DNA from: Chitinibacter bivalviorum
GTDB taxonomy: Bacteria > Pseudomonadota > Gammaproteobacteria > Burkholderiales > Chitinibacteraceae
NCBI RefSeq assembly: GCF_013403565.1
Contig: NZ_CP058627.1
Span: forward strand, 1,736,001-1,800,000
Length of the DNA: 64,000 nucleotides
Reading direction: 5' to 3'
Both the position numbers and the translations under genes were made by a program. The notes beneath the pieces were generated by a model, which worked only from the letters and a program-made list of their open reading frames with translations, did no database searches and had not been told where the DNA came from. Below, in pieces: positions 743 to 22,658 of the stretch. Positions within the stretch are counted from its first letter, which is position 1. Each line of letters begins with the position of its first letter.

Positions 743-771
743 CAAATGGGTGTGATCATCTTGATGCACGT

Positions 772-1251: not shown

Positions 1252-1263
1252 AATAATCCCCTC

Positions 1264-2451
1264 TTAATAGTCATAGCGCACAAATACACCTGCTTGCGCA
1301 TCATCGTAATCATCAAGGCCTTTATCCACATTGCTTGTTATATATTGGAAATAAGGATTGATAGATACACTACGTATTGGTCGATATGCTGCACTTAATC
1401 TCGTGGTGTTGTAATTTTGCTTACGTCCATTAATGCCTAGAGTACTTTCTCTTTCTTGTTGACGATAATTAAAATTAAATAACCATGACAATTTTTCGGT
1501 CATAGCCCATCCGCTAGAGAAATAAGCAGTGCGCTCTAGATTGCGCCCAGCACCATCATTAAATTGCTCAAAGTTTTGACCAACGCCAGCACTTACTTTT
1601 GTCTTATCGGTAATCTGCCAATTAAAACCTATATCGCCTTGTGGTTTTGACTCGGTTGAAGCCGTATCTGCTTTTGATTTCCAGCTACTTAATCCAGCAT
1701 TCGCAGTGAGATTCAAGTTAGCAGTTACAGGCCACAGCAGCGACAAGCGCGTATTTTGCTCATGATATCCGCGTTTATCGGCGGGCAAAAATAAGTTTCT
1801 GAGATAGCTATAGTCTTGCCATTGGTGAATCAGACTAATCACCGAGCCTTTATCGGTATTAAACCGCACACCCAGTCCGTAATTGACAACCCTTGCATCT
1901 TGATATTTCAAATCACTATGTGTTTGTTCATCGTAACCAATATTTGCAAGCAAAGCCCAGTTGCTACTAAATAGCCAATTTCCATTCCAGCTCGCACTAT
2001 TATCGTTAATCATGTCGATGATCCCATTACGGACATCTTCAAACGAATTCATGCTGTAACTGGCGCGCGCATTCAAATCACCAGAAAACTGACTGCCAAC
2101 CTGCCATTTCCAGCCTAATTGGCCATTCCAAGAGGTGTAATTAAGCTCATCAAACTTCAAATATTGCTGCCTAGCTGCATTAGCTGCGACATACAAAACT
2201 TGGCGCGAAAGCGGCACATCAATGCGCCCGCCCACAGATGCAACTATGCTTGAATCACCACGCTGCCCATATTCACGGGTGATGCTATTGCTAGAGCTAT
2301 TTGGTAGCAAAAATACATTGTCGTCATATCGATAATCAATTGCGGCATTCAACTTTAAGGTGTCGTCTGCATCATAAGCCGCAAAGCAGAAGGATGTGAC
2401 CATCGCGGTGAATAGCCACAACTGGTTTATCGATAACGATGCTTTCAACAC
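1264..2451 (-). CDS. epsL: EpsL-like outer-membrane beta-barrel protein of an exosortase-B polysaccharide locus
   Basis: The product has 395 residues with a GTG start (TTG is the next codon) and an N-terminal hydrophobic signal ending near FCFAAYDADD. The rest alternates short polar turns with amphipathic strands such as LNLTANAGLSSW and VSINPYFQYI. It ends in the aromatic residue of VRYDY, which is typical of outer-membrane barrels inserted by the Bam complex. The length, the opening (YRYDDNVF) and the PEP-CTERM neighbour fit EpsL, the putative outer-membrane polysaccharide transporter of exosortase-B loci. It is the first gene of the visible part of the operon. The barrel assignment is firm; EpsL itself is a family-level inference. 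Confidence 0.75.
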   Translation of the reverse strand: MLKASLSINQLWLFTAMVTSFCFAAYDADDTLKLNAAIDYRYDDNVFLLPNSSSNSITREYGQRGDSSIVASVGGRIDVPLSRQVLYVAANAARQQYLKFDELNYTSWNGQLGWKWQVGSQFSGDLNARASYSMNSFEDVRNGIIDMINDNSASWNGNWLFSSNWALLANIGYDEQTHSDLKYQDARVVNYGLGVRFNTDKGSVISLIHQWQDYSYLRNLFLPADKRGYHEQNTRLSLLWPVTANLNLTANAGLSSWKSKADTASTESKPQGDIGFNWQITDKTKVSAGVGQNFEQFNDGAGRNLERTAYFSSGWAMTEKLSWLFNFNYRQQERESTLGINGRKQNYNTTRLSAAYRPIRSVSINPYFQYITSNVDKGLDDYDDAQAGVFVRYDY

Positions 2452-2561
2452 AAAATCTCACTTACACATAACATACGAACAAAAAAACAAAAGCTGACGT
2501 AGCCAACTCATCCAATTCGCATGCATTCTATCATCACTGAGATTAAAGTGCTGCTACAACA

Positions 2562-2599
2562 AAAAAACAGTATATAGGCACATACTTATACAGTTTTTT
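2562..2599 (-). terminator. AT-rich hairpin downstream of murB
   Basis: A run of A, then CAGTATA, a short loop and TATACAG followed by a run of T form a nearly perfect hairpin, seven bases beyond the murB stop. It would work as an intrinsic terminator for murB. The 2452-2605 gap holds nothing else I recognise. Confidence 0.55.
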
Positions 2600-2605
2600 C
2601 TGGAT

Positions 2606-3625
2606 TTAGCCCCAAAAAATAGGCTCAACCATTAAATTGACCTTAAACTTCGCACAAACATCCTTACTCACAGCTTCCGATAACAACTTCACCTGTTGTT
2701 GCGTTGCATCCCCCAGATTCACCATCACTAGCGCTTGCCGTTGAAACATCGCAACAGAGCCCAATGCACGGCCCTTCCAACCTGACTGCTCAATCAACCA
2801 GGCTGCTGCTAGCTTATAAGTTTCTTCACTCACCTTGTACTTGACGAGTGCAGGATATTGCTCGACCAACTCACCTACAAGTTCCTGGCTCACAATTGGA
2901 TTTTGGAAAAAACTGCCCGCATTGCCAATTTCTGCTGGATTAGGAAGTTTCTGTAACCGGATTTGGCTAATCACGGTTGAGATATTTTTGGCAGTGGCTT
3001 GCAAGCTCTGTCTTTCCAATTCCTGTGCGACATCGCCATAATTGGTTTTAGCTTCGTACCGCTTCCTCAACTGAAACGTCACGGCAGTAATGCACCAGTC
3101 GCCATAACCTTCATGCTTGAAAACGCTATCTCGATAAGCGAAACAGCACTCTTCCCTAGCAAATTCTTTTTGCGCACCAGTTTTTAGATGAATCGCAGTT
3201 AATGAATGAAATACATCCTTAATTTCAATACCATAGGCACCGATATTTTGGACTGGAGATGCCCCTACAGTCCCTGGGATCAATGATAGATTTTCGAGCC
3301 CCCCCCAACCTTGCTCCAAGGTCCATTGCACAAACTCATGCCAGTTCTCACCTGCAGCCGCGGTGATATACCAATATTCTTCATCTTCATGAGTGAGCTG
3401 TCGCCCTTTGAGGTCCATTTTCAGCACCAGCCCATGAACCAGCTCGGGCAGAATGAGATTGGATCCGCCTCCCAAAATCGACCATTTGAATTGATTTAGT
3501 TTTGGGTCAGCAATGCAGTCAAGCAACTGCTGAGGCTGTTCGATCGATATGAAATACTCGGCAACTGATTGCAGGCCAAAAGTATTTAAGGAGGTCAGTG
3601 GATAGTGTGATTGGATTTGTGGCAT
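2606..3625 (-). CDS. murB: UDP-N-acetylmuramate dehydrogenase
   Basis: MurB is the FAD-dependent enzyme that reduces enolpyruvyl-UDP-GlcNAc to UDP-MurNAc in cytoplasmic peptidoglycan precursor synthesis. From the ATG at 3625 the product has 339 residues. It contains the FAD-binding GGGSNLIL, PGTVGASPVQNIGAYG, the substrate-binding YRDS (Arg165), the catalytic serine in NAGSFFQNP (Ser238) and the C-terminal VEPIFWG (Glu335). This is the E. coli-like type I enzyme with the Tyr loop. The frame stays open to a TTG at 3649, with an ATG at 3634. I prefer 3625 because the family begins just before the conserved NTFG. No strong ribosome site separates these choices. Confidence 0.93.
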   Translation of the reverse strand: MPQIQSHYPLTSLNTFGLQSVAEYFISIEQPQQLLDCIADPKLNQFKWSILGGGSNLILPELVHGLVLKMDLKGRQLTHEDEEYWYITAAAGENWHEFVQWTLEQGWGGLENLSLIPGTVGASPVQNIGAYGIEIKDVFHSLTAIHLKTGAQKEFAREECCFAYRDSVFKHEGYGDWCITAVTFQLRKRYEAKTNYGDVAQELERQSLQATAKNISTVISQIRLQKLPNPAEIGNAGSFFQNPIVSQELVGELVEQYPALVKYKVSEETYKLAAAWLIEQSGWKGRALGSVAMFQRQALVMVNLGDATQQQVKLLSEAVSKDVCAKFKVNLMVEPIFWG

Positions 3626-3703
3626 GAGTCGCATGCAAGTGATCGGCAAAACGACATTATCTACTAGCTATTTAGGCTTTGGAAGAAAATATACCCCAAT
3701 CCC

Positions 3704-3748
3704 GTATACAATCAAGAAGCACTTAATTACTTGATTTCATGGCAATAC
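3704..3748. repeat. Intergenic palindrome of the GGTAT/ATACC family, copy 1 (degenerate)
   Basis: GTATACAATCAAG and CTTGATTTCATGGCAATAC flank an A/T-rich centre. The inner AATCAAG/CTTGATT arms are perfect and the outer arms are partial. It lies just past the stop of the gene at 3750-4226. It resembles the copies at 9769, 26575, 36218, 46187 and 55171. Confidence 0.5.
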
Positions 3749-3749
3749 A

Positions 3750-4226
3750 TCAAGGCCGATTACCTAGATTCCAGCGTGCGCAATACCATTTAGTCTCTTC
3801 TGGCCCCACTTCGACCAAAACACTACCAAATTTCGACAACCAGCGAGGATAAGGACCAGCCAATGCCACGAAGCTCACACCTAGTCTCGTTTCAATATTT
3901 TTTTTAACTTCAGCCAGTGGCTTCTTAATTAAGGCACCGACCATCAAAGCGCCCGAGTCGGGTAAGTTTACAAAGACCTCTTCCGCCGGATTACCGGCCA
4001 AATCGGCCTTTTGTGCATTAAACCATTCAGCCTCACCCCAAGTTCGTACTGGCTGATTCAGATATTGTCGAAAGTAATTGCGCCAGAATTCGGTGGACCA
4101 TTCGCTGCGGCAAACCAGCGCATTTTCTACCTTATCGCCAAAATGACTTGGGAGTGCAGCAGAAACTGCAGGCATAAAAAAAGCCACCAGCGAGCCGAGT
4201 AAAATCAGTGATTTCAATCGATTCAT
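3750..4226 (-). CDS. Secreted protein of unknown function
   Basis: I do not recognise this 158-residue protein. It has a clear signal peptide (NRLKSLILLGSLVAFFMPAV, cleaved near VSA-ALPS). The mature part is soluble and contains three tryptophan-rich patches (SEWSTEFWRNYF, RTWGEAEWFN, KWYCARWNLG) and two cysteines, at about residues 39 and 149, that could form a disulfide in the periplasm. A GTGAGGAGC ribosome site lies upstream. It stands between ppc and murB on the same strand, about 55 bp after ppc, and may be cotranscribed with ppc. No function can be given from the sequence. Confidence 0.75.
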   Translation of the reverse strand: MNRLKSLILLGSLVAFFMPAVSAALPSHFGDKVENALVCRSEWSTEFWRNYFRQYLNQPVRTWGEAEWFNAQKADLAGNPAEEVFVNLPDSGALMVGALIKKPLAEVKKNIETRLGVSFVALAGPYPRWLSKFGSVLVEVGPEETKWYCARWNLGNRP

Positions 4227-4280
4227 TGGTGGCTCCTCACATCAGTTTAAATTTATAGGGTTTAAACCAATGATGCGTGC

Positions 4281-7037
4281 TTAGCCGCTATTACGCAAAC
4301 CTGCTGACACGCCATTAATTGTCAAATGCACGGCGTGGCGCAATTCTTCGCTGTCATCGCCCGCGCGAATGCGTTTTAGCAATTCAACTTGCAAGTGATT
4401 GAGCGGGTCCAGATAAGGCAAACGATTATCCAAGCTGCGTGCCAACATCGGGTTATCGCCCAACAGTTTTTCATGACCAGTAATGGCCAATACCGCATCG
4501 ACCGAACGCTGCCATTCATCTTTAATGCGACCAAAAATGCGTTTAGCCACATCTTGATCTTGCACCAATTCTGAATAACGAGCTGCGATTGCAATATCCG
4601 ATTTAGCCAACACCATTTCCATATTAGAAATGGTGGTCTGGAAGAACGGCCATGTTTTGTACAAGTGATTGAGGGTTTGCAAACCTTCATCACCCGCCTC
4701 AGCCAGATACTCGCTAATGGCCGCACCAAAACCATACCAACCTGGCAACATCAGACGACACTGCGACCATGAGAATACCCATGGAATCGCGCGCAAATCG
4801 GAAATGCTGCTGGTGTTTTTACGCGCAGACGGGCGAGAACCAATATTAAGGTTTGGAATCTCTTTGATCGGCGTTGCTTCAAGGAAATACGTAATAAAGT
4901 CAGGCGTCGCGTACACCAAGTCACGATAGAAACGATAAGCCGCGTTCGACAACCGCTCCATCAAAGCGCGACGTGGCATTGGATCGGTATCGTAGGGCAC
5001 AGGGAAGCTGGCATCCAAAGTGGCAGCCACCAAGATTTCCAAGTTACGGCGACCGACTTCGCGATCCGCATACTTGGCTGTGATCACTTCACCTTGCTCG
5101 GTAATCCGAATCTGGCCATTCACTGAGCCCAGCGGCTGAGCCAAGATGGCGTCATAAGCAGGGCCACCACCGCGACCAACAGTACCACCGCGACCATGGA
5201 ACAGGCGCAGTTTAATGCCCGCAGTTTTGAACACTTCAACCAAGGTCAACTCTGCTTTGTAGAGCTCCCAGTTTGAAGTCAAATAGCCACCGTCTTTATT
5301 CGAATCCGAATAACCCAACATTACTTCTTGCACATCCCCACGGCAAGTCAGCAATTGACGCCATTGTGGAATCGCAAACAATGCGGTCATGATCTCGCCA
5401 CTGGCGCGTAAATCACCTGTGGTTTCGAACAAAGGAATGATATTGACTTTGCTACGTACGGTTGGCGCCAATGACACCAGACCCACATCGTTCAGCAAGA
5501 CCGCCACTTCCAACATATCCGAAACTGATGCACAGTTGGAAATGATGTAGTTTGGCAATACCGCTTCACCGTAGCGCGCTTGAATTTCAGCCGCCGCCTT
5601 CAAGATATCCAGCTCTTGCTGAACATCTGGGCTGTATGAAACATCGTGCGGGCAAATCAGTGGACGTGGACTTGCCAATTCGCGCAGCAACACCACGCGA
5701 CGGCTGTTTTCATCCAGCGACATGTATTCTTCAAGGCCTGCACGATTGAATAACTCGCTGATCATTTTTTCATGCAAACCAGCAAACTGGCGCATATCGA
5801 TCGGAGCAAGGAAGAAACCAAATACCGACACAGCACGTTGCAGACGACGCAGACGACCACCGGCCAATTTAGCAGCGCCATGCGCTTTCAATGAACGAGC
5901 AATAATGGCCAAATCGGCTGCAAGTTGCTCTGCATTGTCGTACGGCTGAGCATGAGCCACATCACGCAATTGGTGATGGAAAGTGCCGATCTGAATCGCA
6001 GTTGCGAAAATACGCGACGTAATTGCTGTCACAGCCAAGCGATATGGCTCTTCAGTTTTACGCACTACATCATCAGTTGCAGTCGCTGCCAGCGCTGACA
6101 GATCTTGATCGACCTGAACCAAGCGTGTCGACATCGACAACTCGCTTTCGAGCTTCAAACATTGCTGATAGTAGTAATCAAGCGCAACACCTGCTTGGCG
6201 CGATACGGCATAGCGCATAACGTCAGCAGTCACAAATGGATTGCCATCACGGTCACCGCCGATCCAGCTACCGACTTGAATAAAATTGGGCAATGAAACT
6301 TGTTCGCCAGTCATTTCAGACAGGCGATCTTCCATATCTTGATACAGACGTGGAATCTCATGCAGGAAGGTATTACGGAAATAAGTTGCGCCGTTCTCGA
6401 TCTCATCTTGTACGGTCAGCTTCACAGTACGAACTTCACGCGTCTGCCACAAAGTGAGCATGACACGTTCCATCGCCTCTTGATTGGCGGCGATTTCTTC
6501 TGGCGTCATTTGACTACGATCGCGCTGAGTCAGCAAATCAGCCAATGCACGGTGACATTCCAAAATCGTCTTGCGCTTTACTTCTGTTGGGTGCGCAGTC
6601 ATTACTGGCGCAATCAATGTATCAGCCAACATCGCCAACATTTCTGATGGTTTTACATTGCGCTCAGACAATGTCTCGAGTACGGCAGCAATACTGCCAC
6701 GTTGCGGTTTTGAACCCGCAATTTTGTGTACGCGACGACGGCGATTATGGTGCAAATCCTCTGCTATATTGGATAAGTGCGAGAAATAGCTAAATGCACG
6801 CACCAAAGCCATCGTGGTGGGCATATCCAAAATAGATAAAGAGCGCGCTAACGCCTTACCTGCTTCAGGGTCATGAGCCTGAACGTAGCGAAATGCAAGC
6901 TCACGGATCGATTCGATCTGCTCAGCAGTGGCCGAACCGGCCTGTTCGCGAATAGTGTCAGACAACAAGGCGGCGAGTAGGTCCAAATCACGCTTAAGCG
7001 GAAGATCCTTTTCAGCAAGAGGTTCGATCACAGACAT
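4281..7037 (-). CDS. ppc: Phosphoenolpyruvate carboxylase
   Basis: This anaplerotic enzyme carboxylates phosphoenolpyruvate to oxaloacetate in the cytoplasm and refills the TCA cycle. The 918-residue product has the usual length. It shows the active-site motif TAHPTEVKRKT (His149), GGDRDGNP, the glycine-rich LFHGRGGTVGRGGGP near residue 605, GYSDSNKDGG and the C-terminal NGVSAGLRNSG ending. The ATG at 7037 fits the start of bacterial homologues. It is divergent from the PhzF-like gene, with 106 bp between them. No allosteric-site change is obvious. Confidence 0.97.
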   Translation of the reverse strand: MSVIEPLAEKDLPLKRDLDLLAALLSDTIREQAGSATAEQIESIRELAFRYVQAHDPEAGKALARSLSILDMPTTMALVRAFSYFSHLSNIAEDLHHNRRRRVHKIAGSKPQRGSIAAVLETLSERNVKPSEMLAMLADTLIAPVMTAHPTEVKRKTILECHRALADLLTQRDRSQMTPEEIAANQEAMERVMLTLWQTREVRTVKLTVQDEIENGATYFRNTFLHEIPRLYQDMEDRLSEMTGEQVSLPNFIQVGSWIGGDRDGNPFVTADVMRYAVSRQAGVALDYYYQQCLKLESELSMSTRLVQVDQDLSALAATATDDVVRKTEEPYRLAVTAITSRIFATAIQIGTFHHQLRDVAHAQPYDNAEQLAADLAIIARSLKAHGAAKLAGGRLRRLQRAVSVFGFFLAPIDMRQFAGLHEKMISELFNRAGLEEYMSLDENSRRVVLLRELASPRPLICPHDVSYSPDVQQELDILKAAAEIQARYGEAVLPNYIISNCASVSDMLEVAVLLNDVGLVSLAPTVRSKVNIIPLFETTGDLRASGEIMTALFAIPQWRQLLTCRGDVQEVMLGYSDSNKDGGYLTSNWELYKAELTLVEVFKTAGIKLRLFHGRGGTVGRGGGPAYDAILAQPLGSVNGQIRITEQGEVITAKYADREVGRRNLEILVAATLDASFPVPYDTDPMPRRALMERLSNAAYRFYRDLVYATPDFITYFLEATPIKEIPNLNIGSRPSARKNTSSISDLRAIPWVFSWSQCRLMLPGWYGFGAAISEYLAEAGDEGLQTLNHLYKTWPFFQTTISNMEMVLAKSDIAIAARYSELVQDQDVAKRIFGRIKDEWQRSVDAVLAITGHEKLLGDNPMLARSLDNRLPYLDPLNHLQVELLKRIRAGDDSEELRHAVHLTINGVSAGLRNSG

Positions 7038-7143
7038 GGCAATCCAATTTCGGCAAATTCAAGACGGAAAAATTTTGAGCATTCTACCAAAAACTCACAA
7101 TCTCTGCCGCTGATTCAAGCAGAAACTTTCAACGGAAAATTTC

Positions 7144-7983
7144 ATGGCTCGTTACCCTTTTAATTTGCTCAATGTTTTTGCTGAAAAAGCGCAAGCTGGC
7201 GACCCATTAGTCGTCTTCGATTTGGCGCAATGGCCCGACGAACACACCATGCAAATGCTGGCTTACCAGATGAATGGCAGCGAAACTGCCTTTGTAGAGC
7301 GATCAAGCGGAAAAACTCGCTTTTTTCATCCGCAATATGAACTCCCCTTTTCAGGCAAAGGGCTTTTGGGCGCAGCCGCCGTTTGTTTTACGCACCATAT
7401 CAGCCCACAAATTCAGTTGCATTGCGCAACGGGTAGCTATCAGCTCAATCAACATTCCGATGGCATTACCTTAGTAAGCTCGGCAGGTCGAACTCGACCC
7501 GCATCCAGAGGGCAAGTCGAAATCGCACATGCACTGGGTATCGATGCACGTGAAATTCTCTCACCTCTGCAATTTGTCGACACCGGTGTCGAGCAGCTAT
7601 TGGTGCAAGTTAAATCTCGCCAAACAGTACTCCAAGCCCATCCTCATCCAGCGTTACTGGCCGAATATGCAGAAAGCCCCAAACAAAATCCTCAAGCGGT
7701 GATTTGGAACGCCGATAACGACTTAATTACGCTGCGTAGCTTTGTTGCGGATCATTTTGGAATTTATGAAGATTTTGGCGCGGGCTCCGCGGCACTAAAT
7801 TTAGGCAGCGCATATCTGGCACAAGGTGGGCGTTTACCCTTCAATATCAGGATCGAACAAGGCCACACCATACAAAGATTAATTAGCCGCCTATCCGTGA
7901 TTTATCTACAAATTGATACAAAGCTGGATTTACATCTAAAGGGCAAAGTGATGCTTTTAGGGGCGGGAGAACTCACAACATAA
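7144..7983 (+). CDS. PhzF family isomerase-like protein
   Basis: The 279-residue protein has the two-half hotdog-like architecture of the PhzF family. The N-terminal half carries NGSETAFVE with the conserved glutamate (Glu47) that acts as general acid/base in PhzF. PFSGKGLLGAAAVCF follows, and the C-terminal half repeats the fold with DFGAGSAALNLG. No phenazine genes lie nearby, so phenazine synthesis is not implied; members of unknown function are widespread. It is slightly shorter than the usual 280-300 residues. It is read divergently from ppc and ends about 75 bp before the chemoreceptor. Confidence 0.82.
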   Translation: MARYPFNLLNVFAEKAQAGDPLVVFDLAQWPDEHTMQMLAYQMNGSETAFVERSSGKTRFFHPQYELPFSGKGLLGAAAVCFTHHISPQIQLHCATGSYQLNQHSDGITLVSSAGRTRPASRGQVEIAHALGIDAREILSPLQFVDTGVEQLLVQVKSRQTVLQAHPHPALLAEYAESPKQNPQAVIWNADNDLITLRSFVADHFGIYEDFGAGSAALNLGSAYLAQGGRLPFNIRIEQGHTIQRLISRLSVIYLQIDTKLDLHLKGKVMLLGAGELTT

Positions 7984-8057
7984 GACAAATCTAATATTAA
8001 ATAGTACCTTTCATAACAATCTTGAACTCTCGCTTGTTTGCCGCAGGAGCAATAAAC

Positions 8058-9677
8058 ATGTCATTAAAATTAAAAGCTTGGGCACTCTCTATCGGTGTCT
8101 TAATTGCACTCATTGCCGTCATGTTTGTGGGTTTAGGCACCATGCGCGAGATGAGCGCCAAAGACAATCGCGCCCGCATTGAACAATTGATGACCAGTAC
8201 CTACCTCACCATTGTTCAACTTGAGAATATGGCCGCCAGTGGCAAGATTCCAGAAGACCAAGCCAAAGCCATTGCCACCCAGATTTTGCGCGAAAATAAA
8301 TATCACAAATCTGAGTATGTCTATGTCACCGACGAAAAATTAAATTTTGTCGCCACCCCGCTCGACCCTCAATTGCACGGCACCAGCTTTAATGAATTTA
8401 AAGACTCGAAAGGCGGCAGCGTCGGCGCACTCGCTGTTGCGGCTCTGCAAAAATCTGGCGGCGCACTCACAGAATACCCTTGGACATCCGAGCGCGATGG
8501 CAAAGTGGTGGAACTGCTTTCAGTAGCGCAAAAAACGCCGCGCTGGGGTTGGATTGTTGGCAACGGTGTGAGCCAAGCCGAAGCGGATGCTCGCTTCTGG
8601 AGCGCAGCTCGCTGGGAAGTTATGATCTGTTTAGCCGTGGCAGCCATTGTGGCCTTCTTTATGCTCACCACCGTGCGTCGCATCCTCAAAGATTTGGGAG
8701 GCGAACCAGCTGAAGTACTTAAATTAGTGCAAGCGGTTGCCGACGGTAATTTGCAAGAAAGTCGTGAGCTTTCTAGCGCTTCACCTCAGAGTATCTATGG
8801 ATCAGTCTTGCGGATGCGTGAATCATTGCGCAGCGTCTTAACCCAGCTTTCACAAGCCGTGACGACCTTACACCACACCAGCGATGACATCGTTTCGCGT
8901 GCGCAAGACAGCAACCGTCTGATCGAGGCGCAAGGTCACGCCGCCACGCGTATTGCACAAACCGCCGAGCATTTTGCTGAACAAACTCGCTCAGCAGCCG
9001 AACAAGCAACGACCGCGCGCCAGCAAAGCGAATCGGCCACACAGATTTCAGCCAAAGGCTTGAATGTCATTTCATCCGCAGTCAATCGGTTTGCCGATAT
9101 TGAATTGGCCGTGGGCGATACACAAAGCAGTATTGATGATCTTGCTGATCGCGTAGCCAGTATTTCCGCCGTCATTGCGGTGATTCGCGATGTAGCCGAT
9201 CAAACCAATTTGCTCGCGCTTAACGCCGCCATTGAAGCGGCACGCGCGGGGGATATGGGCCGTGGCTTTGCGGTAGTTGCCGATGAAGTTCGCAAACTCG
9301 CAGAACGTACCAGTGCCGCCACGCAAGAAATTGGCCAAACGATCACTGCAGTACAAGGCAGTGGTCAGAACGCCAAAAGCCGCATGGATGACATGTTTGT
9401 GCAATTGAAAGAAGGGATACGCCAAGCAAAAGAAGGTGGCGAAGCAGTTAAAGCGATTAGACATGAAACCGAGGCCACTTCCGTTGTAGTGGGCGCCATT
9501 GGTAATGCCCTATCCGAGCAAGTCGGAGCCAGCATGCAAATTCGCAATGATGTGGACGAAGTGGCTCAATCATCCAGCGGCACGATGTCCGCAGCCCAAG
9601 GCACGGTGGGTGCTGCGCAATCGATTAAATCTGTGTCCAGCCAGCTAGGCAGCTTGGTCCAGAAATTTAAACTATAA
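8058..9677 (+). CDS. Methyl-accepting chemotaxis protein with single Cache sensor domain
   Basis: I start at the ATG at 8058, preceded by GCAGGAG; an upstream in-frame TTG is less likely. The 539 residues begin with a membrane segment ([20 protein letters not shown]). A periplasmic sensor of about 150 residues follows, with the small-molecule Cache signature [18 protein letters not shown]. Then come a second membrane segment (about 193-213), a HAMP-like linker and the cytoplasmic signalling coiled coil. The hairpin tip reads [19 protein letters not shown] and continues [17 protein letters not shown]. It would relay a ligand signal through CheW/CheA. No other chemotaxis gene is in the window and the ligand is unknown. 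Confidence 0.93.
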
Positions 9678-9698
9678 ATTGCAGCATCATCTCTTCTG

Positions 9699-9729
9699 AA
9701 AAAAGCCTGCTGTTATAGCAGGCTTTTTT
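9699..9729 (+). terminator. Rho-independent terminator of the chemoreceptor gene
   Basis: AAAAAAGCCTGCT, a short loop and AGCAGGCTTTTTT form a strong hairpin with a T-tract, 21 bp after the stop codon. A separate short GGGGG/CCCCC hairpin follows at 9735-9749. Confidence 0.9.
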
Positions 9730-9768
9730 ATTGCGGGGGACATTCCCCCGACTAAATACTCCCCCACC

Positions 9769-9815
9769 GTATACAATCAAGATTATATTTAATAATAAAT
9801 CTCAGAGATATACCC
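9769..9815. repeat. Intergenic palindrome of the GGTAT/ATACC family, copy 2
   Basis: CCGTATACAATCAAG starts the element and GAGATATACCCG ends it, around an A/T-rich centre. The left arm matches copy 1 (3704) and the right arm matches copy 4 (36218). It lies between two convergent genes. Confidence 0.55.
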
Positions 9816-9822
9816 GCCAAAT

Positions 9823-9853
9823 AAAAAAGCCACGGCAAGATTACCGTGGCTTT
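9823..9853 (-). terminator. Terminator of the AI-2E family gene
   Basis: AAAAAAGCCACGG, a loop and CCGTGGCTTT form a hairpin. Read on the minus strand it ends in a T-run, 35 bp past the stop of the downstream minus-strand gene. Confidence 0.85.
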
Positions 9854-9887
9854 CCCTATCCAGCTTCAACGTGATCCGAATATTGAC

Positions 9888-10994
9888 TTAGTTTTTGATA
9901 TTGGACACGTCGGTTGAGTTACCCACTACTGCTTCAGGTGGCAATGAACTTGGTTGCAAGACCCAATTGCGTGCTATTTCATAGAAAATCGTCAATAACA
10001 CTGGGCCAATAAACACGCCCAACATACCAAAGGCCAGAGCGCCACCCAACACACCAAACAAGATCAGAATAAATGGCAGGTTGCTACCTTTACCAATCAG
10101 TATGGGTTTAATCACATTATCGGCTGAGCTCACGACAATTAACATCCACGCCGCCAAAAAGATTGACCAACCCACATCACCTTGATGATACAACCAAGCC
10201 GCTGCAGGCAAACCCAACAAAACAGGCCCACCCGGCAACAAAGCCATAATGAAGCTGGCAAAACCCAAGGACATCGCATTGGGGACACCCGCAATGACAT
10301 ATGCAATCCATGAAAGCAGCGCTTGCGCTACCGCGGTGCCCAAAAAACCATAGACTACGCCTTTGGTGGAATTCACTGACACCGCTAAGAGTTCGGTACT
10401 TCGCTCACCCGCAACCCGCTCCATCAGCCCCCGTACCCACTCGCGAATATGTTCACCATCTTGATAAATGAAAAATGCGATGAAAAGACTCATCAGCATC
10501 ATCACCATGCCACCGCCGACTTGCCCCGCCAAAAAGATAACCCACTCGGTAACTGGACCAATAAAGCCACGGATCATCGCCATGGTTTTTGCATCATGTG
10601 CCCCCAAACCGACCCAGAACTCATTGACCTTTTCACCAACCAAAGGCAGGCCCGTTAACCAATCTGGCAGCGCAGGCCATCCAGCATCAAAGCTAGAACG
10701 CACTTGGTTAATAAAGTTGACACCCACATTTGCAAAATCGCTCGCTGCAATAATCACAGGCAGCAAAATAAATAAGCACAAGGTGAGCAACATTAAAATT
10801 GCCGCCAAAGCTCGGCGGCCGTTTAACTTTTCAACCAAATACAAATAGGGTTTCCAAGTACTCAGCACCAATATAGCGGCCCATAAACTGGCGGCCAAAA
10901 AGGGCTTCATGATAGAAAAAACTGTTAAACACAGTAAAAAGATAGCCCCCAGCGCCACCAGAGGCTCGATCAAATCGGAAGTTTTCAGTTTCAT
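9888..10994 (-). CDS. AI-2E transporter family membrane protein
   Basis: I start at the ATG at 10994 (KLKTSDLIEPLVALG), which places the first membrane segment normally; an upstream in-frame start adds 27 unlikely residues. The 368-residue product has about eight hydrophobic segments. It includes the conserved mid-region GGGMVMMLMSLFIAFFIYQDG and the C-terminal ILILFGVLGGALAFGMLGVFIGP typical of the YhhQ/PerM/TqsA superfamily. Family members export autoinducer-2 or act as Na+/H+ antiporters, so the substrate cannot be stated. It is monocistronic, with its own terminator. Confidence 0.88.
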   Translation of the reverse strand: MKLKTSDLIEPLVALGAIFLLCLTVFSIMKPFLAASLWAAILVLSTWKPYLYLVEKLNGRRALAAILMLLTLCLFILLPVIIAASDFANVGVNFINQVRSSFDAGWPALPDWLTGLPLVGEKVNEFWVGLGAHDAKTMAMIRGFIGPVTEWVIFLAGQVGGGMVMMLMSLFIAFFIYQDGEHIREWVRGLMERVAGERSTELLAVSVNSTKGVVYGFLGTAVAQALLSWIAYVIAGVPNAMSLGFASFIMALLPGGPVLLGLPAAAWLYHQGDVGWSIFLAAWMLIVVSSADNVIKPILIGKGSNLPFILILFGVLGGALAFGMLGVFIGPVLLTIFYEIARNWVLQPSSLPPEAVVGNSTDVSNIKN

Positions 10995-11111
10995 TGGGAT
11001 GATTACAGCTAGAGAATTAGGTAGGCAGAGAATAGCGGAAAAAAAGGAATGCAAGGTGACAAACCGAGCTTGCAAAGTAATTAAGCCACATTAGAAATCA
11101 ATCAGCAGAAG

Positions 11112-11411
11112 TCAGCGGCCTTGCCCTGCGCTCATTTTGGCCCGATACACCAAAAGCCCCATCATTTGCGATATATCCAGACGCACTTGCGGAGAATCCA
11201 CCCGGCCAAAGCGATCAGAAAGTGCCTCGTGCACTTCGCAAGATAAATTAAACAACATGGGTTTTTCTGCCTCAGGGGCGCGGCTGAGATACAAATTAAT
11301 TTCATCGACAATCTGATCTGCCAGCTCTTCTGGATAGGTCGCATTGGACGTCAAAATACGATCCAATAATCGAACCCCAATCACACCCAAACTTAATAAT
11401 TGTATGGCCAT
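11112..11411 (-). CDS. Small conserved-looking protein of unknown function
   Basis: This 99-residue protein is predicted to be mostly helical (YPEELADQIVDEINLYLSRAPEAEKPML, VRLDISQMMGLLVYRAKM). It has a hydrophobic N-terminus (AIQLLSLGVIGVRLLDRIL) that could be a membrane anchor or a buried helix. I do not recognise the family. It is on the same strand as the AI-2E gene, 117 bp away, and divergent from glmS. The codon usage and acidic helices look like a real gene. Confidence 0.6.
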   Translation of the reverse strand: MAIQLLSLGVIGVRLLDRILTSNATYPEELADQIVDEINLYLSRAPEAEKPMLFNLSCEVHEALSDRFGRVDSPQVRLDISQMMGLLVYRAKMSAGQGR

Positions 11412-11592
11412 AACCTAGCTCCAAGCCGCAGAAACCTTATAGTTCAATGTAGTGAGCAAAGCCTGATTTGGCACAACCATCCGTCTAACGGTAAAGCCAT
11501 ATTAGCCCCCATATAAGGTGTTTTGTTTAGCGACATGTCCCCTCGTTTGCCCTACAGTGCATGCTGCATTGCATCATTCAAGGACAGGACTT

Positions 11593-13428
11593 ATGTGTGG
11601 AATCGTTGGCGCAGTATCAACCCGCAATGTTGTACCCATGCTCATCGAGGGCTTATCTCGCCTTGAGTATCGGGGCTATGATTCTAGCGGCATTGCCTTG
11701 GTGCTCAATCAAGCTAACAGCCCCGAATTTGAACGTGTTCGCGTGGCTGGGCGAGTCGCCGATCTGAACGCCAAGACCACCAATTCCACAGGACAAATTG
11801 GAATAGCCCATACTCGCTGGGCAACGCATGGTGCGCCCAATGAAGCCAATGCCCATCCGCATTTAGGCGGCAACGAGATCATGGTGGTGCATAACGGCAT
11901 CATCGAGAATTTCGCCGACATCAAAAATGAACTCATTGCATTAGGCTATACATTCACGTCCGAAACAGACACCGAAGTCATTGCGCACCTGATTGCATAT
12001 CAGCAAACACAGACCCCAACTTTTCTCGCCGCAGTTCAGGCCAGCATTCGGCAATTGCATGGTGCTTTTGCCATTGGTGTATTAAGCCTACAAAATCCAA
12101 CTCAAGTAATTTGTGCCCGACAAGGCAGCCCGCTGGTCATTGGCTTGGGGTTTCAAGAGTTCTTTTTTGCCTCGGATATCGCGGCACTGCTCCCATTGAC
12201 GCAAAAAATGATCTACCTCGAAGAAGGTGATATTGCGCTCCTGGATTATCAAAAAATACAGATTTGGGATAACACCGGCCTTGCCGTGATTCGCCAACCA
12301 CGCATGCTCGATGTCTGTGCCGATTCGGCCGAGCTTGGCCCGTATCGGCATTACATGCAGAAAGAAATTTTCGAGCAGCCCACTGCAATTGCCAACACAA
12401 TCAATCAAGCGCTAAGCCAAGGTTTTAACCCCGATCAATTTGGTGAACAAGCCCAGCAAATTTTACAGCAAGCCACCGCAATCCGAATCATCGCCTGCGG
12501 CACCAGCTACCACGCAGGGCTAGTCGCCAGATACTGGATAGAGGCATATACCGGTATGCCAGTCAGTGTGGATATTGCAAGCGAATACCGGTATAGCAAC
12601 GGCCTAGAGCAACGTGGCACTTTGATCATCGCCATCTCGCAATCAGGCGAAACCGCCGATCTTCTGGCCGCGATCCGAAACGCCAAAGAACGCGGCGAAG
12701 TTAAAATTCTTGCCCTTTGCAACGTCGCCCACTCCACCTTAACCCGCGAAGCAGATCTGAGCATTTTGACCCAAGCAGGCATAGAGATTGGCGTAGCCTC
12801 AACCAAAGCCTTCACCACCCAACTTGCCGCACTGTATGTATTTGCCGGCTGCCTTGCCCAAGCACGATCCAGTTTAAGCGACGAAAAGCTTGCTGAATTG
12901 GCCAACTGGCTACCGCGGCTGCCCGCCATGATTAGCGCAGCACTCAGTCAAGAAAGTGAAATTGAAGGCTGGGCGCAAGCACTGAGCCACCACGCACATA
13001 CGCTCTACCTAGGCCGCAACACCTTATTTCCGATCGCGCTGGAAGGCGCACTCAAACTCAAGGAAATTGCCTACATTCATGCCGAAGGCTATGCCGCAGG
13101 CGAATTGAAGCACGGCCCGCTCGCCCTCGTTGATGAAAATATGCCCGTCATCGTCTGCGCTGCCAACGACGCTTTATTTGAAAAACTCATGTCAAATCTA
13201 CGTGAAGTTGAGGCGCGTGGTGGACAGATTTATCTGATCGCAGAACCGGGGTGCGAAGCGGCATTACCCTATGTAAAATCAGCCATCTTCTTACCCCTCA
13301 ACACGGGTCCGCTGGCACCGATTGTATTTACTATTCCGCTCCAACTCTTGGCCTATCACACCGCCCACCGCAAAGGCACCGATGTGGACAAACCCCGCAA
13401 TCTAGCCAAATCGGTCACGGTTGAATAG
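11593..13428 (+). CDS. glmS: Glutamine--fructose-6-phosphate aminotransferase (isomerizing)
   Basis: GlmS makes glucosamine-6-phosphate from fructose-6-phosphate and glutamine, the first step to UDP-GlcNAc. The start is the ATG at 11593, since the catalytic Cys must follow the initiator Met (MCGIVGAV); AGGACAGG precedes it. The 611 residues comprise the Ntn glutaminase domain (1-240) and two SIS isomerase domains, with ACGTSYHAG, SQSGETADLLAAI and LKLKEIAYIHAEGYAAGELKHGP. The C-terminus DKPRNLAKSVTVE is canonical and encodes the TnsD-binding part of attTn7. A Tn7-like end begins 26 bp after the stop. No glmS ribozyme is visible upstream. In a chitin degrader this gene also links to amino-sugar turnover. 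Confidence 0.97.
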   Translation: MCGIVGAVSTRNVVPMLIEGLSRLEYRGYDSSGIALVLNQANSPEFERVRVAGRVADLNAKTTNSTGQIGIAHTRWATHGAPNEANAHPHLGGNEIMVVHNGIIENFADIKNELIALGYTFTSETDTEVIAHLIAYQQTQTPTFLAAVQASIRQLHGAFAIGVLSLQNPTQVICARQGSPLVIGLGFQEFFFASDIAALLPLTQKMIYLEEGDIALLDYQKIQIWDNTGLAVIRQPRMLDVCADSAELGPYRHYMQKEIFEQPTAIANTINQALSQGFNPDQFGEQAQQILQQATAIRIIACGTSYHAGLVARYWIEAYTGMPVSVDIASEYRYSNGLEQRGTLIIAISQSGETADLLAAIRNAKERGEVKILALCNVAHSTLTREADLSILTQAGIEIGVASTKAFTTQLAALYVFAGCLAQARSSLSDEKLAELANWLPRLPAMISAALSQESEIEGWAQALSHHAHTLYLGRNTLFPIALEGALKLKEIAYIHAEGYAAGELKHGPLALVDENMPVIVCAANDALFEKLMSNLREVEARGGQIYLIAEPGCEAALPYVKSAIFLPLNTGPLAPIVFTIPLQLLAYHTAHRKGTDVDKPRNLAKSVTVE

Positions 13429-13449
13429 TTGGTATGGTAATTATTCCGA

Positions 13450-13454
13450 CTATT
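13450..13454. other. Putative 5-bp target duplication of the Tn7-like insertion
   Basis: ACTAT directly precedes the TGTGGG terminus, 22-26 bp after the glmS stop, where Tn7 characteristically duplicates 5 bp. The matching copy at the other transposon end is not in the window, so this is positional inference. Confidence 0.45.
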
Positions 13455-13462
13455 GTGGGAGA

Positions 13463-13540
13463 ACAAAATAGTTCTAAAATACACAAAATAATTCTAAATT
13501 ATGACAACAAAGATCTAAAATACACAAAATAGTTGTAAAT
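13463..13540. repeat. Four TnsB-binding-site-like repeats
   Basis: Three repeats share ACAAAATARTTSTAAA and the third is degenerate (CAACAAAGATCTAAAA). Starts are about 20 bp apart, as expected for the tightly packed TnsB sites of a Tn7 right end. TnsB binding itself is inferred. Confidence 0.75.
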
Positions 13541-13555
13541 TCAGAGAGTCCAGCT

Positions 13556-13781
13556 ATGCTAATGAAAAGCGTACTGGACTTTTTCATGTCGAAATCTCAA
13601 CAAGCACTAACAGAGCTTCAGATAGCTCGCAGGATTAAAGACGGACGAGGCCAAGGATTTTGTCAAAACTATAAGCCTTGGCTATTTGTTCAAGATGTCC
13701 CATCACAGGGTAGATCGCACCGGGTTTTTTCCCAAAAAACAGGTCGTGTGCATCACCTACTATCAGACCTAGAGCTTGCGG
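13556..13781 (+). pseudogene. tnsA: TnsA-like transposon endonuclease, N-terminal fragment
   Basis: About 75 residues remain. They include QIARRIKDGRGQG, YKPWLFVQDVPSQGRSHR and KTGRVHHLLSDLELAVL, which I recognise as the N-terminus of TnsA, the Tn7 endonuclease that cuts the 5' strand. The catalytic Glu/Asp/Lys core of TnsA lies further downstream and is missing. The reading frame runs on into the inverted repeat of the IS21-family element and stops at 13804, adding the foreign tail RRTEY. An in-frame ATG at 13586 is an alternative start. The gene cannot be functional. Confidence 0.85.
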
Positions 13782-13894
13782 TGTTGAGGCGCACTGAATA
13801 TTGACCAGCAAACTGCGGTTTTGCGCAGTGAATTTTGACCAGGGTAACTAATCTCCAAGCTCATTCATCGAGCAAGGATTTTGAGGTGATTACC

Positions 13895-15391
13895 ATGGCC
13901 ACATTTGCTAAAGTTCGCCGCATGTATTTTCGCGACCAACTCTCGATCAGCGAGATTGCACGGCGCACCAGCTTAACGCGCAATACCATCAAGAAATGGC
14001 TACGTACCGACTCAGCTACCGAGCCGCGCTATCGACGCAAGTCTAGCCAAACCAAGCTGTCTCCCTTTATTCCTCAACTCGTTAAAGCATTACAAACCGA
14101 TCTACATCGCCCCAAACGAGACCGGCGTACTGCCAAGGTATTGTTCCAGGAGCTAGTGACTGCGGGCTTTGGCGGCGATTACTCCCGAGTCACTGCGTTT
14201 ATTCGTCACTGGCGCACGCAAACGATGGGGCATCACTTGAAGTCTGCATTTGTGCCACTGCGCTTTGCCTTGGGCGAGGCATTTCAGTTCGATTGGAGCG
14301 AAGAGCATGCATTCATTGGTGGTATTCATCGCAAAGTCTTGCTGGCCCACATGAAGCTGTGCGCGAGTCGCGCTTTTGCATTGATGGCGTATCCTAGCCA
14401 AAGCCATGAAATGCTGTTTGATGCGCATACTCGCGCCTTTCAGATGTTAGGGGGCGTGCCGCTGCGAGGGATTTACGACAACATGAAGACGGCAGTCGAC
14501 AAGGTGCTGCCCGGCAAGGAACGCATCATCAACGCCCGCTTTCATGCGATGACTGCCCATTATCTGTTTGATACTGAGTTTTGCAATGTCGCCTCCGGCT
14601 GGGAGAAAGGTATTGTCGAGAAGAATGTACAAGACCGGCGCCGACACATCTGGCAAGCCGCATTGGCGCTCAAATTCGCGAGCTTTGACGAGCTCAATGC
14701 TTGGCTTGAGCAACAATGTCAGTTGGCTTGGCAGCAATTGCGTCACCCAGAGTATCCTGAGCTCACATTAGCCGAATTACGCCAAGATGAGCAGCTTCAC
14801 ATGATGCCATTTCCAGGTGCATTTGATGGTTACACCGAAGTCTTGGCGCGGGTATCAAGTACGTGTCTGATTACCTTCCAGCGCAATCGCTATTCAGTAC
14901 CGTGTCATTGGGCCAATCAAATGGTGAGTGTGCGGCTATATCCCAGCCGTCTGGTTATCTATGCCGACCAGCAAGTGATCGCAGAGCATGTACGCAGCTT
15001 TGAGCGCAGTCAGACGTTTTATCACTGGCAACACTATCTTCCTTTGCTCGAGCAAAAGCCTGGCGCGTTGCGCAACGGAGCTCCGTTCAATGAAATGCCC
15101 GCAGATTTGCGGCAACTACAACAGCGCTTATTGCGCCATAAAGGCGGAGATCGCATCATGGCCAAGGTCTTGGGTTGTGTACCCAAATACGGCTTAGAAA
15201 CCGTTCAGGTCGCCGTCGCGTTGATGCTTGAAACGGGCAAAGTCAGTGCTGAGCATGTCCTGAATGTGCTGGCCAGACTGCATGAAGCACCTCGGCCAGA
15301 TGCCCTTGAAGTGGCATTGGCGCTGAATGAGCCACCACTGGCAGATAGCCAGCGCTACGATCAATTGCATCAAGGGTTGGGGGTGTCATGA
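13895..15391 (+). CDS. istA: IS21 family transposase IstA
   Basis: From the ATG at 13895 (after GAGGTGATTACC) the product has 498 residues; an upstream in-frame ATG-like start at 13835 is less likely. A helix-turn-helix ([22 protein letters not shown]) opens the protein. The DDE integrase core follows, with FQFDWSE (about Asp133), IYDNMKTAV and the glutamate in [13 protein letters not shown]-terminal beta-barrel region carries [10 protein letters not shown], which is typical of IstA. It cuts and joins the element ends with IstB as its ATPase helper. It looks intact. Confidence 0.95.
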
Positions 15392-16185
15392 TGAAGTTGG
15401 ATATTCAAGCCGAACTGAAGCGGCTCAAGCTGCATGGTATGGCCGCCACTTACGCTGAGCTGCAGCAAGCCAGCAGCAGTGGCACGATGGACATCCTCGA
15501 TGCCAACCTCACGCAACTGATCGATGCGGAACATGCCGACCGACACGTACGCTCCATCAGCTATCAGATGCATTCGGCTCGTTTCCCGCATCATCGGGAT
15601 CTCGCGGGCTTTGATTTTAGCCAGTCGAAAGTCGATGAACGTTTGATTCGTGTGTTGGCACAGGGTGAATACGTTCAGGCGGCACACAATATCGTCCTGA
15701 TTGGTGGTACAGGAACCGGTAAAACCCACCTCGCCACTGCGCTGGGTGTTCATGGCATCCAGCAACATAGTTTGCGGGTTCGTTTCTATTCCACGTTGGA
15801 ATTGGTCAGCCGATTAGAGCAAGAGAAAAGCAAAGGCAAGTTGGCCTATAGCTTAATGCATATGGATGTGGTCATTCTGGATGAGCTGGGCTATTTGCCA
15901 TTCTCACAAGCGGGTGGCGCATTGCTGTTTCATTTGCTGAGTAAGCTGTACGAGCGCACCAGTGTGATTATCACGACGAATCTGACCTTTGCAGAATGGC
16001 CCACGGTCTTTGGCGACGCCAAACTCACCACGGCTTTACTCGATCGACTGACCCATCATTGCCACATTATTGAAACGGGGAATGAATCGTGGCGATTTAA
16101 GCAAAGCAGTGCGAATGCAAAATTGAAGATTCAAGAGCGAGAAAGACAAAAAGAACAGTTGCCCGAACGTGGGGAGTTGTTCTGA
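15388..16185 (+). CDS. istB: IS21 family helper ATPase IstB
   Basis: This 265-residue AAA+ protein is related to DnaC. It has Walker [10 protein letters not shown] (about residues 112-120), Walker [13 protein letters not shown] and sensor motifs (TTNLTFAEW). It overlaps istA by ATGA, which implies translational coupling. IstB assembles on target DNA and delivers it to IstA. It is full length and apparently intact. Confidence 0.95.
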
Positions 16186-16307
16186 AGAAGTAGTAAAAAG
16201 CAGCAAAAGCCGATAGGCTAAAGAGGGTCGTACACGAGGGTGTACGGCAAAAATGCCTGGTCAAAATTCAACGCGCACAGCTGGTCAATATTCAGTGCGC
16301 CTCAACA

Positions 16308-17007
16308 GGTATCGTTCTTTATGGGCTTCAACCAACAGTGTTTTTTCTCGGTTACTCAGCTTCTGCGGATCAACGCCCAAGCCTTTTTCCAGAATTTCAT
16401 TGGCAGTTTTCAAAATATCTCGTTCGAGTTGAAACTGTCGCAGGTCGCTTTGTAGTGTTTCGAGCTGGAGCTTTACTTGATCTGGCGAAGAATTGTCGCT
16501 GAGTTTCATGGATGCAGGGGTCTCATGACCGAGTAACTGGTTTTTCCAGTTGTACAGCGTCACTCTGCAGACCCCTAATTTCTCAGCAATCGCCTGAGCA
16601 CTCCCATTTCGAGCGCAAAGTGCCATAACCCCAGCTTGCTTCATTGAATCGGAGTAACTGATTTGTTTAAAGCCGCCAAGAATCCTTTTTCTGGACTCAG
16701 GAAATACTTCGCCAATCCAATCGCTTAATACGCTACGACAGGGATAGCCCAGTGCGTGAATGGTGCTCGCAATGCATTGACCATGCATGCGGTAATGCTC
16801 AACAGCGACCTTTTTCTGCGTTTGCGAGTATCTTGGTTTCCTGCATGCATAGCCCGCTGGCAAGTCGAGCATTTGTTCGTATTCCCGATACCAGCCTTTC
16901 AAGGCATTCTTGGTTGGATAACCCAGCTGGCGTAAAGTTGGCCCGACGCGTTTTCCAAGTTGAATGTATAGCTGAACGGCACGCAATCTATCCTCGTACG
17001 AATACAT
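16308..17007 (-). pseudogene. IS3-family transposase OrfA (HTH protein), truncated by the IS21 element
   Basis: The frame starts at the ATG at 17007 after an AGGAGG site. It encodes about 233 residues: two helix-turn-helix repeats (LGKRVGPTLRQLGYPTKNALKGW, GQCIASTIHALGYPCRSVLSDW), a third HTH (AQAIAEKLGVCRVTLYNWK) and a leucine-zipper end (LQSDLRQFQLERDILKTANEIL). This is the OrfA part of an IS3-family element. It breaks off at VEAHKERYLL, where orfB should begin. The IS21 end adds RRTEY and a stop at 16285. Without the DDE-bearing OrfB it is inactive as a transposase. Confidence 0.85.
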
Positions 17008-17062
17008 GAACTACCTCCTGGTAGTCCAAGATTTTATCCGCAGCTCCGGTGGGTCAGATTTC
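16308..17062 (-). mobile_element. IS3-family element, 5' remnant
   Basis: Only the left end and orfA survive. The terminal part is probably the segment up to the TGACCCACCGG-like sequence near 17050-17062. The exact outer boundary is uncertain because the other end is missing. Confidence 0.6.
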
Positions 17063-17217
17063 AATCGGCGCGAACACAGTCAGCACACTGGGCTTTTTTA
17101 CAAACACATACACCCAAACACATACACCACCACAGTACCTTCATTGGATTCAATAACTACAGTGCATTAAAGAATATACCCCAATTTACTGCATTTCCTG
17201 CACGCAAAGCGCAAAGC
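17063..17217. other. Intergenic stretch between IS3 remnant and rRNA terminator
   Basis: No gene is seen. It contains a short direct repeat (AAACACATACACC twice, 17101-17129) and a lone ATATACCCC half-site of the GGTAT/ATACC family near 17174. I found no Tn7-like left end here. Confidence 0.5.
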
Positions 17218-17250
17218 AAAAAGCCCAGCTCGTTTGAGCTGGGCTTTCTT
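17218..17250 (-). terminator. rRNA operon terminator
   Basis: AAAGCCCAGCTCG, a loop and CGAGCTGGGC form a strong hairpin just beyond the 5S gene. On the minus strand it ends in a T-run. Confidence 0.9.
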
Positions 17251-17257
17251 TAGGGGA

Positions 17258-17372
17258 GTCTGGCAATGACCTACTTTCACACGGGCTATCCGCACTATCA
17301 TCGGCGCTGAGGCGTTTCACTGTCCTGTTCGGGATGGGAAGGAGTGGGACCACCTCGCTATGGTCACCAGAC
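17258..17372 (-). rRNA. rrf: 5S ribosomal RNA
   Basis: About 115 nt. The minus strand begins GTCTGGTGACCATAGCGAGG, contains GGTCCCACTCC and CCGAACAGGACAGTGAAACG, and ends GGTCATTGCCAGAC, which pairs with the 5' end. It is the last gene of the rRNA operon. End positions are within a few bases. Confidence 0.95.
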
Positions 17373-17499
17373 AAAACTGGGTGAATAACTGCTTACCCCA
17401 TTGGGTTTGCAATCACTCGAAATCAATAGAAGAAGTAATTTTTACTCTTAATCATTGGGTCGATTATACCATCAGTCGCTTAACGCGTCTCAGGTTATA

Positions 17500-20387
<2,888 letters not shown>

Positions 20388-20574
20388 ATAACCTCAAACA
20401 CGTTTTACCGTACTCTTGGTCAGAGTTTCGTATTTACGACTTGTTGAATAGTTTCTCACGCTATTCAACGGCTGACTTTTACATCAGCAGATACAATCAA
20501 CCCAATTTATTACTGTAAAAACAAGTCACCCTGTTTTCACATTGTTTAATTAGGAGATATTACTTCTTCTATTT

Positions 20575-20587
20575 TGTTAAAGAACGA
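20575..20587 (-). promoter_or_regulatory. boxA antitermination site in the 16S-23S spacer
   Basis: The minus strand reads TCGTTCTTTAACA, close to the boxA consensus TGCTCTTTAACA. It lies 190 bp upstream of 23S, where the Nus complex loads. The 20388-20738 spacer otherwise shows no gene. Confidence 0.7.
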
Positions 20588-20738
20588 TACAGATGTCTTT
20601 CGACATTCCGATTTAAGAAACCAGAACAAAATCAACAACCCGAATCCCAACTACTGATCCGTCTATTGACTGAATTCTAAATTCTTGACAGTGACTTTTT
20701 TGCTGCACCACTGTTTGCACAGTGCTCGCCGCAAGGTG

Positions 20739-20814
20739 TGGTGGAGGATGACGGGATCGAACCGACGACCCCCTGCTTGCAAAGCAGGTGCTCTCCCAAC
20801 TGAGCTAATCCCCC
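20739..20814 (-). tRNA. alaT: tRNA-Ala (TGC)
   Basis: 76 nt including an encoded CCA. The minus strand starts GGGGGATTAGCTCAGTTGGG, has the anticodon loop CTTTGCAAG and the T-arm GGTTCGATCCC, and closes with an acceptor stem ending TCCACCA. It is the second spacer tRNA. Confidence 0.96.
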
Positions 20815-20853
20815 AATCTGGCATTACTAAGCTGTTTCCACTTACTAGGTAAG

Positions 20854-20930
20854 TGGTGGGTCAAGCTGGAATCGAACCAGCGACCCCCGCCTTATCAAGA
20901 CGGTGCTCTAACCGACTGAGCTACTGACCC
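20854..20930 (-). tRNA. ileT: tRNA-Ile (GAT)
   Basis: 77 nt including CCA. The minus strand starts GGGTCAGTAGCTCAGTCGG, has the anticodon loop CTTGATAAG and the T-arm GGTTCGATTCC, and ends GACCCACCA. It lies between 16S and tRNA-Ala, the usual spacer order. Confidence 0.96.
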
Positions 20931-20987
20931 AGCTTTTGTCTTCACTAGATCAACCCTAACTTCGAGATTACCTTAGATAATCTACGC

Positions 20988-21014
20988 CGCCAGAGCGACT
21001 GACCCAGCTTCCAA
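20988..21014 (-). repeat. Partial copy of the tRNA-Ile 5' end in the spacer
   Basis: The plus strand reads CAGAGCGACTGACCCAGCTT. It echoes the end of the tRNA-Ile gene with its flank, with the internal GAGCTA lost. It cannot fold as a tRNA, so it is probably a recombination scar. Confidence 0.4.
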
Positions 21015-21123
21015 CCAAGTCCGTAACCCTGAGATCAATTGCTTCATCTCGCAGTTACTTTCTCTGTATCTTCAAATTCTACAGCCGATGAGTGTGAGTA
21101 CTTGACCCGCAGGTCTTTCTCTT

Positions 21124-22658
<1,535 letters not shown>

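Follow-up and report, generated by a model that had tools for sequence, protein, structure and literature searches.

Behind glmS in the genome of Chitinibacter bivalviorum lies what is very probably the relic of a Tn7-type transposon, the rest of which disappeared in association with an insertion sequence of the IS21 family, by one or the other of the two routes considered below. In the window (the whole stretch of DNA analysed, 64,000 nt) a Tn7-type right end follows glmS and leads into the start of tnsA, which breaks off at the edge of an IS21-family element. The features up to this break are listed here.

11593..13428, plus strand: glmS, the carrier of attTn7 (SIS and GATase domains)
13449..13453, plus strand: ACTAT, candidate 5-bp target duplication, on one side only, directly 5′ of TGTGGG
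13454..13545, plus strand: Tn7-type right end with TGTGGG terminus and four TnsB-type sites (spacing, blastn, plasmid matches)
13586..13780, plus strand: tnsA, the 5′ 65 codons (TnsA match in PDB; K. variicola and R721 TnsA)

GlmS has the C-terminus PRNLAKSVTVE, its stop codon is at 13426-13428, and a top-scoring match to glmS is present in 37 of 37 genomes. As stated in an excerpt of PMC2918618, Tn7 enters behind glmS with a 5-bp duplication; an excerpt of PMC11406308 describes the right end, with four partly overlapping TnsB sites, as facing the att sequence, and the two together give insertion just 3′ of glmS with the right end proximal as the Tn7 rule. The locus is arranged in this way: the right end is proximal, just past glmS, and the TGTGGG terminus starts at 13454, 26 bp past the stop codon, where the first-pass annotation had put it. 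A second copy of ACTAT was not found in 16308-17257, so the 5-bp duplication cannot be demonstrated.

The TnsB-type sites, of 18 bases each and of the ACAAAATAG kind, start at 13463, 13483, 13504 and 13524. Four repeats about 20 bp apart had been noticed before; their exact spacings are 20/21/20 bp, identical to those computed by script for the right end of Tn7 of plasmid R721, and the identical script returned 20/21/20 for the corresponding end of a Tn7-related element carried by a K. variicola plasmid. Taken as predicted sites, they correspond to the four partly overlapping TnsB sites of the canonical Tn7 right end. When 13429-13555 was shuffled 2000 times, the four-site chain never arose, and a scan of both strands of the window gave no further chain of even two TnsB-type sites. 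In blastn alignments the right end shares 77% identity with that of R721 Tn7 (131 bp) and 78% with the K. variicola element (190 bp), matching both in sequence as well as in spacing.

Among 72,556 plasmid records, 90 matched the segment 13449-13781, and 67 of these covered at least 80% of it; the best E-value was 8e-59, with 98-99% of the 333 bp aligned. The best 15 of the 90 have identities of 70.7-76.0% at 98-99% coverage. They include seven Klebsiella and Proteus plasmid records at 75.9-76.0% and eight others, mostly from E. coli, Shigella and Acinetobacter, at 70.7-71.7%; four less-covered records outside the best 15 reach 80-90% identity. Matches of such identity over 98-99% of the segment mark the stump, and with it the relic, as close kin of canonical Tn7.

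The frame that follows the right end matches Tn7 TnsA in PDB (1t0f), the alignment spanning residues 11-80 of the frame in its longer form, with an E-value of 3.6e-27; the 65-residue stump is 78% identical to K. variicola TnsA and 69% identical to R721 TnsA. As in canonical Tn7, tnsA is the first gene inside the right end, here with its first 65 codons only. The first-pass annotation had spoken of 75 TnsA residues; the match to TnsA holds, but the length has to be reduced to 65 codons (13586-13780), as the earlier figure includes 10 codons located 5′ of the Tn7-equivalent start. The end assigned to the frame, 13804, was likewise wrong: it overruns by 8 codons, stop included, into the IS21 element starting at 13782. 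No Pfam or NCBIfam model matched the 65-codon stump because the TnsA domains lie beyond residue 65 (in K. variicola TnsA, PF08722 spans residues 74-165); the stump is without nuclease domains. A PF08722 search gave no match in the C. bivalviorum genome and none in 14 control genomes either, and is hence uninformative. Right-end DNA, TnsB-site spacing, the start of tnsA and the position behind glmS all fit canonical Tn7, in agreement with the original proposal that a Tn7 element formerly occupied this attTn7 site.

Other tns genes were sought as well. A TnsB query had no match in the whole C. bivalviorum genome; of the 61 genomes searched, 22 gave one, the strongest in the family members G027 and G019 and many of the remainder weak. 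The Pfam TnsD model also had no match in the whole genome; it scored above cut-off in 4 of the 61 genomes, G019 and G027 being positive. A canonical Tn7 has tnsB and tnsD; since neither was found in this genome, the locus is filed as a Tn7 relic and not as a Tn7. Tns queries from R721 (A-E), K. variicola (A-D) and G019 were run against 171,086 bases of stretches from the C. bivalviorum genome (overlaps included), which took in contig C4 in its entirety and the sequence on either side of each of the four full chromosomal IS21 copies. Their only match was the 65-codon stump, where the alignments ran past its end into IS21 by a few residues; next to the four IS21 copies, nothing else of tns type was seen. 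Within these bases tnsC was absent, the control locus in G027 being positive for TnsA-D; tnsE was absent too, with no positive control, as the same locus is negative for TnsE. No left-end-like array occurs in 16308-17257, and the R721 left end matches only the 20-base right-end terminus in the stretches searched. A genome-wide scan with a terminus pattern modelled on the right end returned the window locus, its C4 copy and one place with 3 mismatches. The last is at C1:115493-115517 on the minus strand; a reversed control pattern gave no match.

Beyond the tnsA stump, the window continues with the following features.

13782..16307, plus strand: IS21-family element, 2526 bp, TGTTGAGG...CCTCAACA (further copies; ends and flanks)
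13895..15391, plus strand: istA transposase (NF033546, E 5e-92)
15388..16185, plus strand: istB helper ATPase (PF01695, E 3e-80; NF038214, E 2e-78)
16308..17076, minus strand: IS3-family element, truncated; its orfA-type gene runs from 17007 and breaks off where IS21 ends (NF033516)
17077..17257, no strand assigned: rRNA-operon flank (90% identical to C1:2100585-2100758)
17258..22658, minus strand: rRNA operon, 5S-23S-tRNA-tRNA-16S (Rfam)

With istA, istB and TG...CA inverted ends the element belongs to the IS21 family. It starts exactly where TnsA similarity ends (13780/13782), and its far end, 16307, adjoins the cut IS3-family transposase gene on the minus strand. This boundary at the end of the stump is consistent with the loss by rearrangement that the first-pass annotation had proposed. 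Besides the copy in the window, full copies are present at three places in the chromosome and at one on contig C4. The IS21 target duplication is usually 4-8 bp. At the four full chromosomal copies the flanks match over 2, 1, 0 and 1 bases only, which means that no target duplication is present at any of them. The copies at C1:1862746 and C1:2677110, with unmatched flanks, adjoin what by eye appear to be truncated integrase genes, as if IS21 had trimmed additional mobile elements there.

The IS3-family gene matches NF033516 with an E-value of 3e-17 and 63 bits, the model cut-off being 160 bits. We take the IS3-family stretch to end near 17076, where the rRNA-operon flank would start. Reading 17077-17257 as such a flank follows from the match of these 181 bases to C1:2100585-2100758, where, as at four places with shorter matches, the tag of a 5S gene comes directly next. 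Segment 17023-17076 is repeated at C1:1502745-1502797 with 89% identity and, in part, at C1:1526077 and C1:3338792. This recurrence was considered as a sign of an IS terminus; no matching IS3 transposase was found beside the examined copy, C1:1502745-1502797, so the segment may be a short repeat in its own right and the boundary at 17076 is a matter of inference.

The proposed history would begin with a close relative of canonical Tn7 inserting ∼25 bp past the glmS stop in the usual orientation, with TnsD recognising the 3′ end of glmS. IS3 and IS21 insertions would have come afterwards, leaving an IS21-family element within tnsA, and recombination between two IS21 copies of the same orientation would then have taken out the DNA between tnsA codon 66 and the left Tn7 end, both included, along with part of the IS3-family element that adjoins the rRNA-operon flank. 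This would leave the tnsA stump and a right end that has kept all of its four TnsB sites. The full element of the past, its use of TnsD and the place of the lost left end are inferred here, as are the order and mechanism of the losses.

Contig C4 (28,994 bp) bears on the mechanism. It repeats window positions 1-16307 with differences in 13 indel columns, and at the IS21 end (10291/10292) it continues into the right flank of the IS21 copy at C1:1421600. Either a chimeric contig or a duplication or circle formed between direct IS21 copies separated by ∼328 kb would give such a junction; C4 fits an IS21 that recombines. The identical relic could also result from a single IS21 insertion in tnsA followed by a one-sided deletion adjacent to it, a course of events that we regard as possible, if rather on the doubtful side. 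The site has a single IS21 copy, with unmatched flanks, as would be the case after an adjacent deletion; still, all four full chromosomal copies are without matching flanks, and a hybrid junction of the C4 kind is expected from recombination between direct copies. Neither the unmatched flanks nor the C4 junction cleanly separates the two routes; recombination between two IS21 copies is favoured.

Because the IS21 copies, of 2.5 kb each, hardly differ and C4 has a different right flank, the IS21-IS3 junction is supported by one contig. An assembly that had joined unrelated flanks across identical IS21 copies, leaving the true right partner of the stump elsewhere, is quite improbable. On C4, it is true, the stump and IS21 are continued by the flank of the C1:1421600 copy; against this, the flanks of the four full copies have no tns genes, the stump would be a stump with either flank, and the 13 indel columns over the common 16.3 kb suggest that C4 is of lower quality. 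Support for the C1 order comes from the congener G002, where an rRNA operon is located within ∼650 bases of glmS (96% identity over 5.3 kb, mostly rRNA genes). This suggests that adjacency of glmS and an rRNA operon is an old neighbourhood here as well, as seen in this one congener only: G003, G004 and G005 have other genes behind glmS in the stretch read, and the G001 contig stops ∼1.2 kb past glmS.

Repeat arrays are also present behind the glmS genes of relatives. In the 200 bases behind glmS (167 bases in one genome), at least two AATAAAGT-type sites 17-24 bases apart were found in 8 of 22 other family genomes and in 0 of 7 genomes outside the family; the scan used loci from 30 of the 37 genomes, with a motif picked after some of these sequences had been viewed. 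The positive genomes are four congeners (G001, G002, G004 and G005) and four other family members; in each, at most 6 of 1000 shuffles reached such a chain. Ten loci were also divided into 647 tiles of 200 bases, and all five tiles with such a chain were at glmS. The C. bivalviorum genome itself scores 0 for the AATAAAGT-type motif. That its repeats and frame are native regulatory DNA resembling Tn7 by chance is scarcely credible: the arrays in 8 of 22 family genomes speak for it, but the relatives' repeats differ in sequence, no shuffle produced the array, spacing and sequence agree with Tn7 from the end into tnsA, and of 399 genomes sampled from the order just 2, its own included, have this right-end DNA.

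The first-pass annotation had held that finding the same repeats behind glmS in relatives free of tns genes would count against a Tn7 origin. In form such repeats do exist, in the four positive congeners, none of which matched the Tn7 tnsA and tnsB queries; their sequence, though, is not that of the Tn7 repeats. We read them, short of proof, as relics of other Tn7-type elements. In the same four congeners and in G011, two or three ATTAAAGTCGTGA-type repeats ∼21 bases apart lie behind glmS, and beyond them a stretch resembling a hairpin and then a reversed gene in decay, which in G002 is represented by similar DNA only. The region is alike across genera, even though G011 glmS is only 54% identical to that of the window, as if it had moved horizontally. 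There is a weak suspicion, from sequence comparison, that the reversed gene may be a TnsD relic: blastp gave an E-value of 0.011 and Pfam TnsD an E-value of 0.071 for one fragment, while a longer relative of this fragment had no Pfam TnsD match and a profile comparison was negative (probability 0.1, shallow alignments).

The tnsA fragment was matched in 6 of 61 genomes, the C. bivalviorum genome included, and in 0 of 5 congeners; right-end DNA, as said, is confined to two genomes in the sample of 399. The earlier expectation that relatives of the strain may still carry the element found no backing in these counts. Genome G140, from the same order, has two matches to the right end and tnsA start, at C1:911506-911833 (71%) and 912708-913035 (70%), 1.2 kb apart. 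The tnsA-fragment matches include G026 and G016, the latter distant from glmS; in G007, G019 and G027 tnsA lies within ∼140-320 bases of glmS. Since in G007 the matches are limited to tnsA and the first 61 residues of tnsB, it is a second relic. Taken together, the family data suggest that at least two Tn7-type lineages have made use of attTn7, often with only the ends kept, and solo Tn7-type ends apparently stand behind glmS in several family members.

Relics of Tn7 are an ordinary outcome and their type is well understood; this one is notable mainly for a TnsB-site array that still looks complete. The locus shows that bacteria of the Chitinibacter type were reached by close kin of clinical Tn7, of which a right-end stump bordering an IS is left. 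Arciszewska et al. (1989) reportedly observed that a right end alone can confer immunity, and Parks and Peters are said to have worked on Tn7 islands. The intact-looking array might still bind TnsB of incoming Tn7 relatives and make glmS immune, which we consider unlikely. If it did, solo Tn7-type ends behind glmS would be self-made barriers that steer which element settles next, and relics whose ends still confer target immunity would shape the later colonisation of attTn7. An excerpt of PMC11406308 states that an existing Tn7 copy inhibits a second insertion nearby. In the literature, as far as titles and the first lines of abstracts go, no description of the Chitinibacter locus could be recognised, and nothing combined Chitinibacter with transposon and Tn7.

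Among known systems, the Tn7-like elements of the family (G019 and G027, with the shorter relic G007) share with the relic the position of tnsA nearest glmS. They differ in TnsA proteins that are only 46-52% identical to the stump and in having three AATAAAGT-type repeats versus four in the relic; G019 and G027, unlike the relic, keep tnsB, C and D behind glmS. The closest among the matches listed is the Tn7 relative on a Klebsiella plasmid (NZ_CP129756, WP_063099979), with TnsA 78% identical over 65 residues and right-end DNA plus tnsA start 76% identical to the relic. Unlike the relic, it is located on a plasmid and has full-length tnsA, tnsB and tnsC, and its record closes with a short tniQ/tnsD gene. 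From the prototype, Tn7 of R721 (NC_002525), the relic differs in its TnsA stump (69% identical), in the cut of tnsA by IS21, and in that tnsBCDE, cargo and left end were not found at the site; it has in common with the prototype the TGTGGG terminus, the four TnsB sites spaced 20/21/20, and tnsA directly inside the right end.
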